Shown in pieces: positions 3,998 to 35,500 of a DNA stretch of 64,000 nucleotides. The notes below the pieces were generated by a model. That model had not been told where the DNA came from and did no database searches. It saw only the letters and a program-made list of their open reading frames with translations. Made by a program: the position numbers and the translations under genes. Within the stretch, counting starts at the first letter, position 1. Each line of letters starts with the position of its first letter. Source of the DNA: Cloeon dipterum. Taxonomy: Eukaryota; Arthropoda; Insecta; Ephemeroptera; Baetidae. The stretch covers positions 2,794,545-2,858,544 of the forward strand of contig NC_088790.1 of the NCBI RefSeq assembly GCF_949628265.1, read 5' to 3'.

Positions 3998-6019
3998 GAA
4001 GTTATTTTGTACCCGATCTGATTTTGATTTGAATATTTAAAAAAATTACCGCTAGTGTTAATACGAGCTGGCTGAAGAGTCGAGCGTTGTCTCTGCACAT
4101 GGTGATTTACGGCAGACTTTGGCAATGAACCTGTTTTGTATGGTTGCGCGCGCTCTGCGTGTGAAGGCGCTGAGGGAGGAACTAAAATATTAGACTAGAG
4201 CCGAAGCGTTGAAAGGCTTAGTTGAGTGGAGTGCTTATCACCAGACGGAGCATTGCTGTCTCTTCCAGATTACTGCCAATTTATTCAGGTGAGCAAAAAG
4301 TGCAGAGGAGCTGCTGCGCTGCCATTAGATCGATCTCGTTGCGTCTGCACCACGATTCCAATCATTCCCTGCAAATGACAGCGTGCGCTCCTCACTTATT
4401 TTGTATCGCACTCCGGAGGGGTGAATTATTGAATAATTGGGTTTGATTGTTGCTCAGCCGGACATAAAATAAAGCCATTCATCGAGCGGACCCCTTTCAT
4501 TCTTGAAGCACATCTTTCCAACAGGCCGCGAGCATATTATTTTAAAATAAATTTTTTGATTAAATATTGTCAAATACGTAAATTTAGAAGGCAGAGATGT
4601 TGCCCTTATTTTGTTTGTTTCTCTGAACTTTCTTAACTAGTTCATTATGAAGCCAAGTTGAGCTCACAGCCTGTCTCAGCATAAAGGATCAAGCGTCGAA
4701 ACCATATTTCTAGGCCACAGAAGATGCAAAAGTTAATAGCTGCGTATTTTCGGTTTCGGTACTCACAGACGCATACAAGCAGGCTCGAGATTATTAAATA
4801 TTAACGATGAGACCAGCAAAATTCAATTTGTTGGCAAATCTTAAATTTTTTAAGGCGACGAAAATTGTAATTAAGTTCCATTTTTACTCCAAAAGGAATT
4901 TATTAAAAAAAAATGACTAGACTGAATAGTATAATTTGTAAGATGTTAAATAGGAGAATAATACTAGTCATCGAGCTTGGGGCGATCCTTCTAAATGGGC
5001 CGGGGGATGGTTTTCCATATAGTATATCGAAAATTTAACCGGGACAGTCGTAAATTTTGGCGGCCCACCCTCACCCCCAAGTTTTAGTGGACAAACTGAT
5101 CCGATCAAGAGTTTCTTGATAATACAGCAAAAAATTTTGATCTCGAAAAATTCCACTTCAAAAAATATAAAAATTGACATTTTTCGAGTTTTTGGGTTTT
5201 AAGTCTCGGGTTGTAACGATCAGAATTGCAAAAACTACCCGCCGTCTCGACCTCCACTAATCAGCCAAAGTGTTTAGGGGGTGTTTACCCCCATCGGGAT
5301 CACGATTAAAGGGGATGAGATACGCGGTTAATTGTGTTTCTCGAGTCGAAAAACATTAGAAACAACTCTGTTCTGATCAATTTAACTCACAAAATTGTGC
5401 AGGGGATGGGTCTCAGCCACCAATCATTAATCAAAATTAATAATTTTCAATCAAATTTGGGCCAAAGCAAGTCTACACAAGATTGCTCTTTAAAATAAAA
5501 ATCGCGATTTTCAGGGTGCTAACAATGTTTTTTTTTTCAACATTTTGGCTTTGATTTTCTCGAAAAAAAGTGAAAGGATGAATGCCACTATTTTTTAAGC
5601 GTTGTCGCTTCGTTTATGGGCCACATTTTAGCTATTTCAGATTTTTAAACTTATATATTTTTTTTAAAAATTCGACCTGATTTTTGTCACCCCTTCTGAT
5701 ACCAAATATTTTTATCTACCTCAATCCAGGCAAAAGTTATAATTTTCTAATAAAAAATCCCCTTAATTTTGGGAATTTTGGTTCAATATTTATGCTGTCG
5801 ACAAAATGTATAATGTAAAACCAAACTAACGAGAATGAAAAATATTTCCAAGTAAGTCTTTTGCTATTATAGGTCTCTCTCACTTTCGCTTGCTTTTTTT
5901 TAAAGAAAAAAGCCTCAAAAATAGAAAAAATATCTCATATATTCCACTATTTTATGTGCTGTGTATGAACACAGAAAATTCTTTTATAATTTCAGGCCGA
6001 GAGAAGCCGCCTGAAAGTA
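3998..6019. other. Intergenic region upstream of F-spondin, with a possible 5' UTR exon
   Basis: No convincing coding exon was found. A candidate non-coding first exon of F-spondin ends at a GGTGAGC-like donor near 4287 (TTATTCAG/GTGAGC). The matching acceptor TTTCAG ends at 5995, 25 bases before the F-spondin ATG. This pairing is inferred. The rest is AT-rich and contains a dispersed repeat at about 5035-5300. Confidence 0.35.
5035..5300. repeat. Dispersed repeat family A, copy 1
   Basis: The stretch around 5210-5300 (CAGAATTGCAAAAACTACCC, then a cytosine-rich CTCC...CCCCC stretch) resembles segments at 20455-20575, 59200-59310 (opposite orientation), 61885-61990, 62235-62330 and 63905-64000. 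Each copy pairs a CAGAATTGCAAAAACT-like block with a CATTCGACT-like block and a following run of cytosines. Confidence 0.5.
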
Positions 6020-29530: not shown

Positions 29531-32500
29531 TTACTGAGAGTCTCGTGGCTGCTGTAATTTATCGTAGGAAGGAGTGGAACTGCCCGCGGGAGACTGCGAC
29601 TTGGGTTTCCGAACGGGCTTTGTGTTTGCTGCACAATCGAGCGCGAATCTGATCTCTTCCTTCAGCGTTTCAAGGAAACTCGCCTGAAACAATCAAACAA
29701 ACCGATTGCTTTTGCTGATATCGACGCAGAAAATACGCACCCTTTCCTCGACCGCCACTTTGCGCGTGTTCCACAGGAATTCGAGAATGGCGACGATCAA
29801 CGAGCCCATCATGCCGCCGATTAGAACGACGAAAACGCCGCCGACGTTGGACATGCCGAGTTCAGGACCGGCACTCGCCACGGCCACGCTTTGCTGCCAA
29901 ATGCATGTTCGATTTTCAATTTGCCAAAAGCGCCGTGCTGAATAAATTTACCTTGCAAGCTCCGCCGCCGTGCATTTCTTTCCACCATTTATTTTTAAGC
30001 GCGTACAATTTGCCCTCCTCTTGCAGCTTCAACACGGCGCCACTAATAGCAGTGCGGTAAGGCGAATCTGCATCACGGAATCAATAATTCAAAAAAATAT
30101 TTTATAGAGGGATCGAAATTAATTAATTTGTTAATTGAATTTCAATTAGTTTATGCGGCAAATCAGGCTGGAACGGTGGACATAAAACGGGAATGTCTAC
30201 AATTTATGACAAATTGTGCCAAAAGATGCCCAATCCGACAGTTTAAATTCCAACCATTAAATTTATTAGAATTTTGAATTAGTTTGAAATTCCTCAAAAA
30301 TATTTTTTTTCATTTTTTTATAGAAAAAAATGTTTTTCTAAGTGTATATAACATGCCTAGAATTTTTCAGGAGGTTGAAACTACTAGTTATTGAGATACG
30401 AAGGGTGAAAGGTTGAAAAAAGGGTGTTTTTGAGCTTTGAGGTGAATTTTTAGAAAAATTTAAATCTTATGATTGTTTGATTTTTACCCTTGGACGAGAC
30501 CATCAGGATAGGTAAAAAGTCGAACCCTGGCGTCAGGGTAGCCATCGAGCGATCGGTAGCCACTTTATTGACGCCTGGCGGGTTCTGTAATGATTCGATT
30601 TGCGTAATTTTTACACCGTTGGAACGGCCAAGTCGAGAGCTTTCAGAATATGGTCAACTCGACCCCTTTTGAAAGCAACCAGGGCGCTCAGAAATCGCCC
30701 TGATCTCGTTCCTGAGTACCCTGAAATCGCCCTGATGTCTTCCAAAAGAGTCGAATTGCGCATATTCTGAAAGCTCTCGACTTCGCCATTCCAATAGTGT
30801 GCATATCTTGAAAATCAAACCGTTACAGAGCCCACCAGGCGTCGTAAAAGTGGCTTCTGATCGCTTGAGAGCTACCCTGACGCCGGGGATTGATTTTCCG
30901 CCTGTTCTGACGGTCTTTTCTGACCTTAGAGGTGACTCCCAGCATGTTCAACCAATCAGGCAACTTTGAAATTTTCAAAATCCACATGAACTTTCAACCT
31001 TTTTGCATCTCACTTTAGGGCAGCAATTAACTTATTCCATTCTTATCAAATTTTAAAAATCCCGTATATTAATTGAAAAACTACTCAAATTGTAAGAATT
31101 TTCTCATTTTTGTGAATGCCAAAAAATCTCGGGGAAACAGCCCTCTAAGACACATTTCGAGAGGTGATTTGTAATTTGCACTCACTCAAGGGCATGGCTA
31201 CCCCGTATCCCTTGGAGTCGAGCAGCCCGCCGACTTGCTGCAGGTCGCAGTTCCTCTCGACCACGTATTCGATGGAAGTGGATTCCATGAAAAAGGCGTA
31301 GGTTCGTTTGCTTTTCGCCACGCGCTCGACGCCCTCGGCATTGTTTGACACAAACACGCTCGGCCTCGTCTGCTCCATGAATGAGTACATTTTTTGGTAG
31401 AGCGAAAAGTTCGAGTTCTGCGGCAAATAATAGGCGGAATTCATCATGATGAGTCCGAAAAGGGGGATTTCGGAACTTGCCCAAACAGGAATATGTCAGA
31501 AAAATTGAGTAATGGATGATAAAACGTGCAAAAGGTTTATTCACAAAACTGCAGAATTAAATTAGTCCTCTCGATAAATCTTTGTCAACATTATTTTATC
31601 CATAGAATAATTTCCCAACTTCGGCACAGTCCCAGGAACATTTTCTTATTTCTTCGAGAAAACCCGAAACGTAGAAACAACATTTTGCTTGAAGTGCAAA
31701 TGTCTCAGAATTTTTAATTTGAAGTTAATGAAAGTGTCAATTTTTAATTTAAAATTAAAAATAAAATGCTTATCGAGATACCTGTCCCGAAAATAATTTT
31801 AAACAGCTTCCCTATTACGAACAAAATATATTCGGACAAATTCCATTCTGTTGGACAGCAATTTCGGGATTGGACTAAGAAAATGTGCTCACAGCGAAAA
31901 AGGAGAGGGTCGAGCCTCCAGACACGGCTCCGTATTTGATTTTGGTCTGCTTGGCCAAGTCCTCGGCCGACTCGATGGTGGCGTCCATCCTCTCGACGGT
32001 CAGGAAAGCGGCTAGATTGGCGGTGTAGGACGAAATCATGATCAGGGTGAAAAACCACCACATGCCAGCCACCATTCTGGTCGACACGGCCCTAATCGTT
32101 TCCAAGAAGATAAATATTATAGTACAACAAAAAGGTCTTTTTTAATTCATCGGTGCACAGGAGGGTGAATATATTATTTACAATTAACAGTCCCCCTCGG
32201 ATAGTCATCCCTTAGTTTGGTTTATTTACAGAGGTTTGAGTAGCTTTTGAATATTTGCCAACAGAACTGAAAAAGACACACACGATGGTTGCGGTCATAT
32301 GAAAAATAAAAGTCTGTGAAGAAATATATATTCTGATGACCTCATGCGTGGTTAGGAAGCAGAACAGTTAGGTTGAGAGAATAAGAAGCAAAAAGCGTTA
32401 TTCTATACCACATTAGCAAGGTACCAGTGAAATTAAAGATAGAATAATCGTCTACAGAGATGAGAATTATTTGAAAGCCTAATAATTTTATTGCGATAAT

Positions 32501-35500
32501 AGAGTCCAATCTACCTACAAAATTTCAAACCAAAATTGCGAGAATTTTTGCTTTCGTAAATCGCGAGATCTTTAAATTTTTAGTACAACTGATATGGATT
32601 TAATATAAGAAGAATCGAGGGGTAAAATAGTAATACTTGCTTTACTCTTCGCCTGCTATAAGAAACAAATTCTCGCGTTGCAGTTGAATTAATTAATATG
32701 TATACTACTACAAAACATTATTAAAAGCCAACTAATGCGCCTGCTTACTTTGGGGCAATATCTGAGCCTTGCTGCATGATTGAACCACAATTATGCCAAA
32801 TCAGGTTACATAGAGTGAGGTTATTTTCCAGTTCTTCGGGTTCATTGTTGCAAGGGTGAGGACTGGTCCATTCATAAGGGGTAATTCTGCAATGCAAGTC
32901 AAGTACGTCCCAGTATACAAAATAAAATTTTGACCATCCATCCGGATTTAGCAAAACAAAAAACTGGCTGCATAACAGAGAGGGTCGAGCGTATTTGCAT
33001 CCGCGCGGCTGCAGCTGAAAACGTTTTGTCAGTCGGCTATTTTTGGTATTAGTCAAAGGGCTCAAAGTGTGTTTGTGTGTGTCAAAACCGCGCAATTATC
33101 ATTCAAGTGCATTGCAAAATGTTTTATCATGTTCAGAGTGAATATCATATAATTACATAACAGTTTTGCTGGACAAAATGGGGGGAGGAGTCTCTTACTT
33201 GGGCAAAAAGTCGCAACCTTGCTGCATGAGGGAACCGATAGTGAACCACAACGAGTTGGGCATGTTAAATTGTGACTCGAGCTCGTCCGGTTCTGGATTG
33301 CACGGGTGCGGATTTTGCCATTCGTTCGGCGACAACCTGTGATTCAAATGATTAAAATAATAATTGTTTTATGTGGATCAAGGTGAGAAAATCCAAAATA
33401 TCAGCCAGATGGAACGTCGGGCCTGGAAAGGGGATTTAAAGATGTTTAAGTGAAAAATTTCTAATTACTTCTACGGCTATTTAATAGGGGTTTTATAATA
33501 TGGGCCAATTCTAAGCTAAAATACTAACAAATGTTGATAATAAAAATAGGAAACTCTGAGTGTTCTGCTCTAGCTTGCAATTTTTTTCGCCTCAAACGTG
33601 TAGACCTTCATGAAATAAAAATTGAAATTTCCAATCTAGCATCATTTCCGAGTTCAGGGTATTTTTAGTTTTTCATGAAAATAAAAATTTTTAAAAAAAT
33701 TTCTAAAAAGTAATTACAAGTGGCTAGCACTCTTTGGAAAACTGTCCGTTAAGGCGGCGAAATTGTCCAAGAGCGTCGGCAAAAAGCAGTTCAGAGGTCG
33801 CGCGACCTGAGAAAGGTCGTTGACAGGCAATGGAAAAAAAAATCGTCCATATGTGCTCGAAATTACTGAAAAAACGTTCAACCGGTCTCAGAGCAGATTT
33901 CAGGTCGGGGTACTCTACAAAAGGGCAGTTTAGAGTACCGGAGGTAAAAGCCCCTCCCGAGACCTGTCCGATGAGGGGTTGTGGTCGACGATCTGACAAG
34001 CAACCGAATTTTAACAAAAAATAAACAATTTGCTCGTCGAACCATGAAGCCGAAATAATCTAAAAAAAAAAATAATTTTAATTTTTCTATGGGCGCGAAA
34101 AATCTGAAAATTGCTTTCCAGACCGGCGGCGGTCTTTTGCGAGCGATGTAGTCGGTAAAACAGCTTAAGTTTCCTCCGTTTGGAAAAAAATAGCGAGTTT
34201 TCGATTTCCCATGTGATCCTTATGGAGAAAGTGCAAAAATCGCATTTTTAAAACTTCAAAATCTATCTGCTCCTAGGATTTTGATTGGTTGGTCTCCAAA
34301 TTTTACCAGATTAATTTCGCATCGATTAAGAAGCCATTTTAGAATTTCAGGGCAGTAGATGATATTGCACTTTGCAACATTTTTTTGCGTTTACTAAAAA
34401 AATTATATTTTTTTCCAAATTGCGCCATTTTTTTAAATTTGGTCTGTCCTTAATTCGAATAAAAATACTAAATTGAACACAATTGAGGAAAAAAATTGTA
34501 ATAGATGCAAACAAAGCCAGGGATCCCTTGTTAAACTATCTAAAATGTCTAACCAACTTCCACTGGAAAATTCTAGTTAAATCCTGAAAACAAAATTAGC
34601 GTTATCTAAGGAGGCGTGGGGGTAGTACCTGGCCAAGAAGTACAAAATAACAGAGACTCCCAGGTATGCTGTGGCCATGTAGAGCCAAACGTCGACGGAT
34701 AGTGGAGAAAGGAAGGAGAATAAGTTTGGTGGCTGCTTCACAGGCTTGCTGTAGAGAATGCTAATACCTGAAGCAAAGCAAAATCTAGAATTTGCGAAAA
34801 AAATTGAAACGATTTTACCTAGATTCATGAAAGGCATGGTAAAATCAACGGCCCCTTCTCTATCGTATGTTATAGTTAAATCACAAATAGCGAGATCGGC
34901 TTTCTGTGAAAATGTGAAATATAGGAAATGAATTTTGGCCCAAATGAAGCTGGTTATATTATATTACCCTTTCTAAAAGTTGTTTGACTAAACCGTCCCA
35001 TTTTTTGGTGACCGGATTGTAGCTTCCATAGCGGCCATCCGGAACTAGCTGGAACTCGTATTTAAAGCCCAAGATTTGCGAAATTCCATCAATTAGATCA
35101 ATCGAGTATCCTTCAAATCTATCATTTCCCGTGAGCTTTTCGCCATTCGTTTTGAACATCAGGTATGGAGCACCCTAATGCGAAATAACTAAAAATAAAA
35201 TCAAAATGTAGAAAATTTCTTACAATTCGTGACGAAACGATGAACGTCTTATTTTGGAGATTTTCAATAATCAAATTCCTTATTTCGCTGTCAGAAATGG
35301 TGTGGTTGATTCCTATCTGCGGATCCCAAGTGGCACTTTTGATCAAGCTTCCTCTTTGCCACTCGACCAGATCCAGGGTAAAATCAGTTCGGAGGCCGAC
35401 GTTGTCAAATTTGACAGGCCCAGTCAACCCCTTGGTCTCCATCTGCACAAAATTCCTCAGTATTCAAACACTATATTCGTTTTTAAGCCAAAATCCCTTA

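Follow-up and report, generated by a model that had tools for sequence, protein, structure and literature searches.

Duplicated exclusive exons are carried by the insect nAChR alpha6 gene. Among ionotropic glutamate receptors, tandem exclusive exons are known as the flip/flop pair of the vertebrate AMPA receptors (GRIA1-4), each 115 nt long (PMC8257547). The same family also displays post-transcriptional diversity in the pore loop itself, through RNA editing at the Q/R site of GluA2, GluK1 and GluK2 (PMC8257547). In vertebrate AMPA and kainate receptors this site governs how permeable the channel is to calcium, and the editing that changes it affects a single codon (PMC8257547). Comparable devices in other receptors and channels include the mutually exclusive exon pairs of Drosophila cacophony, a neuronal channel gene (PMC11828482), and the alternative splicing of nAChR alpha6, a receptor channel (PMC1919356). 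Among the matches listed from open-licence PubMed Central, a collection outside which most subscription journals lie, none describes an ionotropic glutamate receptor with an alternative pore-loop exon. I describe here such a candidate exon pair in the insect Cloeon dipterum. In its genome, 5 of 25 candidates scored match 7tm_6, the family of insect odorant receptors, as would suit an insect, probably a winged one. An exon-by-exon search, a weak method for genes of this type, gave 1 match to odorant-binding proteins, as compared with 191 such genes reported for C. dipterum (PMC7250882). A search for TTAGG, of a kind that may pass over simple repeats, gave 0, and one for COX1 gave a single weak match below the cut-off, on contig C2.

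Pore exons A and B of a kainate-type gene

The window, a stretch of 64,000 nt of genomic DNA, carries on its minus strand one kainate-type ionotropic glutamate receptor gene, a glutamate-gated channel by predicted class. Spliced alignment to the GluK2 segment taken from the PDB gives the exon order S1a, S1b, M1, A or B, M3, with every junction in frame. In the direction of transcription, the parts of the gene are as follows.

34968..35174, minus strand: S1a exon, first part of the ligand-binding lobe (low end from the spliced alignment, high end from tblastn and by eye)
34819..34903, minus strand: S1b exon (spliced alignment)
34629..34767, minus strand: M1 exon, the upstream partner common to A and B, with donor GTACTACC (spliced alignment)
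33337..34628, minus strand: intron M1-A, 1292 nt
33199..33336, minus strand: pore exon A, M1-M2 linker and pore loop
32887..33198, minus strand: intron A-B, 312 nt, GT-AG
32749..32886, minus strand: pore exon B, alternative M1-M2 linker and pore loop
32092..32748, minus strand: intron B-M3, 657 nt
31893..32091, minus strand: M3 exon, the downstream partner common to A and B (high end from the spliced alignment; low end, with donor GTGAGC, by eye)
31187..31417, minus strand: core of the S2 exon, exon boundaries not set (tblastn)
29531..30067, minus strand: last exons, with the end of S2, M4 and the C-terminus, to TAA (by eye; inner boundaries not set)

The class of the gene was assessed with both predicted forms of the protein. 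Pfam PF00060 (Lig_chan) gave 150.8 bits for form A and 142.0 bits for form B, both far above the cut-off, and PF10613, the glutamate-binding S1 lobe, gave 142.8 and 142.9 bits, respectively. The best solved relatives of both forms, as judged by sequence, are kainate-receptor chains. For form A, GluK2 was nearest (E 5.8e-109, against 8.8e-91 for the best GluA, among the best 60 of 334 entries). For form B, the query also took in M3 and a section of S2; the first entry was a chain that bears just the name 'Glutamate receptor', and GluK1 and GluK2 came next. Read by eye, S2 and M4 follow, and the gene ends with a stop at 29531. Upstream, three ORF pieces were scanned with the ANF-receptor profile PF01094: one scored 39.3 bits, one 24.8 bits against a cut-off of 25.4, and one had no match. 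Since the 3' part runs to a stop and two of the three upstream pieces match this domain, one of them just below the cut-off, the gene looks whole, the ANF-receptor domain being seen as separate ORF pieces.

Each of exons A (33336-33199) and B (32886-32749) has a length of 138 nt and phase 2 at either end, and each can be joined to the common M1 and M3 exons without a break of frame, at the flanking junctions 34629 and 32091. The acceptors read ATCACAG/GTT for A and TTGCAG/AAT for B, and the donors CAA/GTAAGAG and AAA/GTAAGCA; the donor of the M1 exon is GTACTA, not GTAAG. The two exons share 24 of 46 residues and 79 of 138 nucleotides. They are thus neighbouring homologues, alike in length and phase and equipped with usable splice signals, as is characteristic of an exclusive pair, and they are situated between M1 and M3, not at the end of S2 before M4 where flip and flop are found.

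The Q/R site is the same in A and B, a glutamine in MQQG with a CAG codon, while its surroundings differ. The M2 pore helix starts with WFTIG in A and WHNCG in B, the residues just inside the Q/R site are QGCDFLPK in A and QGSDIAPK in B, and the cytoplasmic M1-M2 linker is remade between the two forms. In the numbering of the 5kuf GluK2 chain, in which position 590 is the first Q of MQQG as counted on the alignment, position 583 is F in form A and H in form B, and position 593 is C in A and S in B. An earlier note on this DNA had described the two consecutive 138-base exons with their identical phases and GTAAG donors, the junctions on either side, the 24/46 identity, the glutamine kept in MQQG, and the replacements of WF by WH, TIG by NCG and CDFLPK by SDIAPK. 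Each of these observations was reproduced, the splice sites being GT/AG with sound acceptors. The motifs that B was said to share with vertebrate GluK (PYEW, ENN-TL and QGS) are likewise present in the PDB chains. Over 47 residues, however, identity to the GluK2 chain is 27/47 for A and 25/47 for B, so that B is not nearer to GluK2 overall.

The most probable interpretation, in which I have good though not full confidence, is that this kainate-type gene has a tandemly duplicated pore exon and that each mRNA takes either A or B between M1 and M3. A single locus would in this way give two subunits that differ in the linker, at the start of the pore helix and in the inner residues of the Q/R site, and that both keep the Q/R glutamine. 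From the sequence I infer exclusive use, a mechanism of choice, and effects on permeation, block or gating.

History of the pair and probable choice between its members

A paralog of the window gene, G1 (locus L034 on contig C1), contains a pair of the same kind. Near it on C1 lies a further paralog, G3 (L039), with one pore exon.

6679-6816 of L034: exon A1 of G1, 138 nt, phase 2-2, ending CDFLPK
6853-6990 of L034: exon B1 of G1, 138 nt, phase 2-2, ending SDIAPK
5790-6125 of L039: single pore exon of G3, fused to M3 with no intron between

The endings therefore match across paralogs, CDFLPK in A and A1 and SDIAPK in B and B1; the pore exon of G3 is of the SDIAP type, its last residue being T, not K. 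A third pore exon was sought by tblastn in the window gene and in G1, and none was found in the flanking region at E<=20, only fragments of 6-15 residues. The claim of a duplicated, phase-matched pore-loop exon in a kainate-type gene is upheld by the structure of the window gene, by the occurrence of the same pair in G1, and by the codon-position pattern of exon B.

This pattern bears on whether B is a functional exon. Between B and B1 there are 13 differences at first, 9 at second and 26 at third codon positions (p 0.0003). Their 29/47 identical residues were reached in 1e-4 of 20,000 neutral simulation runs. The excess at third positions, together with the simulation, indicates past constraint at the protein level over much of the path between B and B1. 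The dN/dS analysis of exon B that the earlier note had proposed was carried out with paralogs only, as a terminal-branch test; it gave an omega of 0.032 without rejecting neutrality (2dlnL 1.18, p 0.28), with saturation at silent sites and the branch length at its upper bound. Constraint on the terminal branch of B was not demonstrated by this test. A stop-free frame taken alone is weak evidence, with a P of 0.11-0.16 under neutrality. Out of 10 aligned pore exons, B is the sole one in which two aromatics are missing (F to H after W, and F to L before the pore helix), so that a recent relaxation is possible.

An unlikely interpretation of these data is that B is a duplicate in the course of decay: formerly an alternative exon, like its counterpart in G1, it would now be unused in the window gene. 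This interpretation would account for the neutrality not rejected on the terminal branch of B (p 0.28), for the two aromatics gone in B alone among the 10 aligned exons, for the branch of B being the longest and at its bound, and for a spacer of 36 nt in G1 but 312 nt in the window gene. It fits poorly with a frame that is open over 138 nt with no indel, with an acceptor and a donor that are sound, with divergence concentrated at third codon positions, and with a Lig_chan score that is still 142.0 bits for form B. Exon B is probably used, judging from these features.

The age of the pair was addressed by comparing 7 trees under codon, protein and DNA models with the AU test. The by-type trees (A with A1, B with B1) were the best of the 7, exceeding the gene-wise trees by 16-17 lnL units under codon models, 12 under protein and 4-6 under DNA, and the gene-wise trees were not rejected at 5% (AU p 0.054-0.071 for codon, 0.062-0.073 for protein and 0.14-0.37 for DNA). 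A tree with a duplication in the window gene only had AU p values of 0.141 (codon), 0.0495 (protein) and 0.397 (DNA), and one with the B exon of the window gene outside all others was equally good (0.551, 0.449 and 0.459, respectively). The unconstrained DNA tree put the B types together and did not join A to A1. Support for grouping by type, which falls short of AU rejection of the alternatives, makes it probable, and not certain, that the A/B duplication predates the split of the window gene and G1. That the copies in the two genes instead stem from separate duplications after the gene split, the CDFLPK and SDIAPK endings being convergent, is quite improbable. The gene-wise trees left unrejected at 5% leave room for it, as does the window-only duplication (protein p 0.0495, codon 0.14, DNA 0.40), but the by-type trees are the best of the 7 under codon, protein and DNA models alike, and the SDIAP type is independently present in G3. 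Separate duplication concerns the origin of the exons and not their use, and is hence compatible with the best explanation, a choice between A and B in each mRNA.

How this choice would be enforced may differ between the two genes. The spacer between A1 and B1 in G1 is only 36 nt long, while the shortest other introns in the spliced models have 51 and 52 nt, and one read by eye has 49 nt. Two branch-point-like motifs, identified with a loose custom pattern, start at bases 7 and 11 of this spacer. In human genes, a donor-to-branch-point distance of <50 is counted as potential steric interference (PMC5740500). Splicing of A1 to B1 is therefore unlikely in G1, the spacer probably being too short to be spliced, and this spacer would enforce the choice by steric exclusion. 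G1 looks like a clean instance of such exclusion and the window gene presents the long-spacer case. In the window gene, all four combinations, including both exons in and both out, keep the frame, and the A+B stretch translated contains no stop. With the frame preserved whichever exons are joined, nonsense-mediated decay would not enforce the choice; nor would a short spacer, A and B being 312 nt apart. Another exclusion device is needed, which could involve splicing factors or intron pairing. The predicted pairing of intron 1 with intron 2 was -133.1, as compared with a mean of -112.3 (sd 6.9) for shuffled sequences, and was equalled by 1 of 60 shuffles; as an exclusion device it is only a hint. 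Pairing of introns 2 and 3 was matched by 16 of 60 shuffles and that of introns 1 and 3 by 42 of 60, neither being unusual. A U12-type intron was also considered as exclusion device and showed no sign by eye, the introns being GT-AG with GTAAG donors.

It is very improbable that A and B occur together in some mRNAs, or that B is a cassette added to A, to give two linker-pore segments or a non-conducting regulatory subunit: such an mRNA would be in frame and free of stops over the stretch translated, and the A-B intron, at 312 nt, is of ordinary length, but the structural element encoded by A is also that encoded by B, a further pore loop ahead of M3 would be unlikely to fold, and joint inclusion is implausible in G1 given its 36-nt A1-B1 intron.

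Pore exons of other AMPA/kainate-type genes

In the same genome, 43 matches to Pfam PF00060 were obtained, and 18 regions around some of them were examined. Six AMPA/kainate-type genes were recognised, namely the window gene, G1, G3, G4, G5 and one AMPA-type gene, the remaining PF00060 matches being unclassified. The nearest solved relatives are GluK for the window gene, G1, G3, G4 and G5, and GluA2 (E 2.2e-112) for the AMPA-type gene. Duplicated pore exons are present in five of the six, G3 being the exception. The pattern is thus wider than the single gene of the earlier note, with four further genes having duplicated pore exons, three of which have copies that differ at the Q/R site.

5197-5454 and 6875-7153 of L035: two M1-plus-pore exons of G4, one R-type and one Q-type
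5331-5074 and 3718-3461 of L036, minus strand: two M1-plus-pore exons of G5, one R-type and one Q-type
about 2910-2276 of L037, minus strand: alternative S1b-M1 and pore block of the AMPA-type gene, with K at the Q/R site (FKQG)

In both G4 and G5, the two M1-plus-pore exons are of phase 0-0 and are flanked by a single S1b and a single M3 exon. MQQG (Q) is found in one copy and LRQG (R) in the other. Splicing of any of the four copies keeps the frame; the donor of the R copies, AAG/GTTC in both genes, looks weak. Since an LRQG-type pore is present in a Drosophila kainate-type subunit, the R form may be old and known in flies. The by-type tree of these four exons was ahead of the gene-wise tree by 11.6 lnL (AU p 0.018), and four of five rival trees were rejected, one not (p 0.059). 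These tests suggest that the Q/R exon pair probably predates the split of G4 and G5. Against this, the R copy of G4 and the Q copy of G5 differ at 13/8/37 first, second and third codon positions, as compared with 35/22/39 for the two R copies, and the unconstrained tree joins the R copies and leaves the Q copies as a grade. The more conserved-looking copy is R in G4 and Q in G5.

In the AMPA-type gene (L037), the normal exon is of the S1b-M1-pore kind and carries MQQG. The alternative block of this gene consists of two exons upstream of the normal one, 44 nt separating the donor of the block from the normal acceptor. It aligns with a score of 570, versus 738 for the normal exon, has lost the usual linker and has an uncertain inner intron boundary; it may for these reasons be a degenerate copy.

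Three kinds of duplicated exon can hence be distinguished: pore only, phase 2-2; M1 plus pore, phase 0-0; and S1b-M1-pore, phase 0-2. Since their boundaries are unlike, this suggests that the pore segment was duplicated separately in three kinds of gene. Scans of genome contigs and viral contigs with the M1-M3 protein yielded no relatives outside this genome, and the genes compared are from one assembly. A tentative hypothesis, somewhat less likely than not, is that in this insect alternative splicing of duplicated pore exons is a general and repeatedly evolved way of tuning AMPA/kainate channels, with separate duplications in three kinds of gene. G4 and G5 would have a splice-selected Q/R switch setting calcium permeability, and the window gene would vary the pore helix and the inner mouth of the pore.

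Two further features were observed in G4 and G5. On the minus strand of L036, G5 has two alternative S1a ligand-binding exons, with cores at 9623-9426 and 8412-8215 and phase-0 donors to the same S1b, and may hold two alternative clusters. Reading by eye also showed, in introns of both genes, inverted-repeat elements of ~370 bases whose ends are alike (CAACAGATGGCGCCACCGTA); they resemble miniature transposons.

about 7360-7720 of L035: inverted-repeat element (by eye)
about 4660-4290 and 2800-2430 of L036, minus strand: inverted-repeat elements (by eye)

Comparison with known systems

If exchangeable pore exons are used, they would constitute a second, independent way of diversifying the pore segment besides editing. 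Calcium permeability would then depend on the exon chosen, a role that an editing enzyme has in mammals, and few genes could yield many channel types. Whether insects set glutamate-receptor permeation by splicing is a question that can now be tested.

Compared with Q/R editing, in which one codon is changed, whole exons would be swapped here. The state of the site also varies among the genes: Q in both copies of the window gene, Q or R in G4 and G5, and Q or K in the AMPA-type gene. Flip/flop lies at the end of S2 and affects gating, whereas the A/B pair comprises the M1-M2 linker and the pore loop, is 138 nt long and is phase-symmetric. Because of this symmetry, nonsense-mediated decay could not clear double inclusion of A and B. 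Finally, cacophony and nAChR alpha6 belong to other channel families, and their alternative exons are not in a glutamate receptor pore loop, the segment in which A and B would be exchanged.
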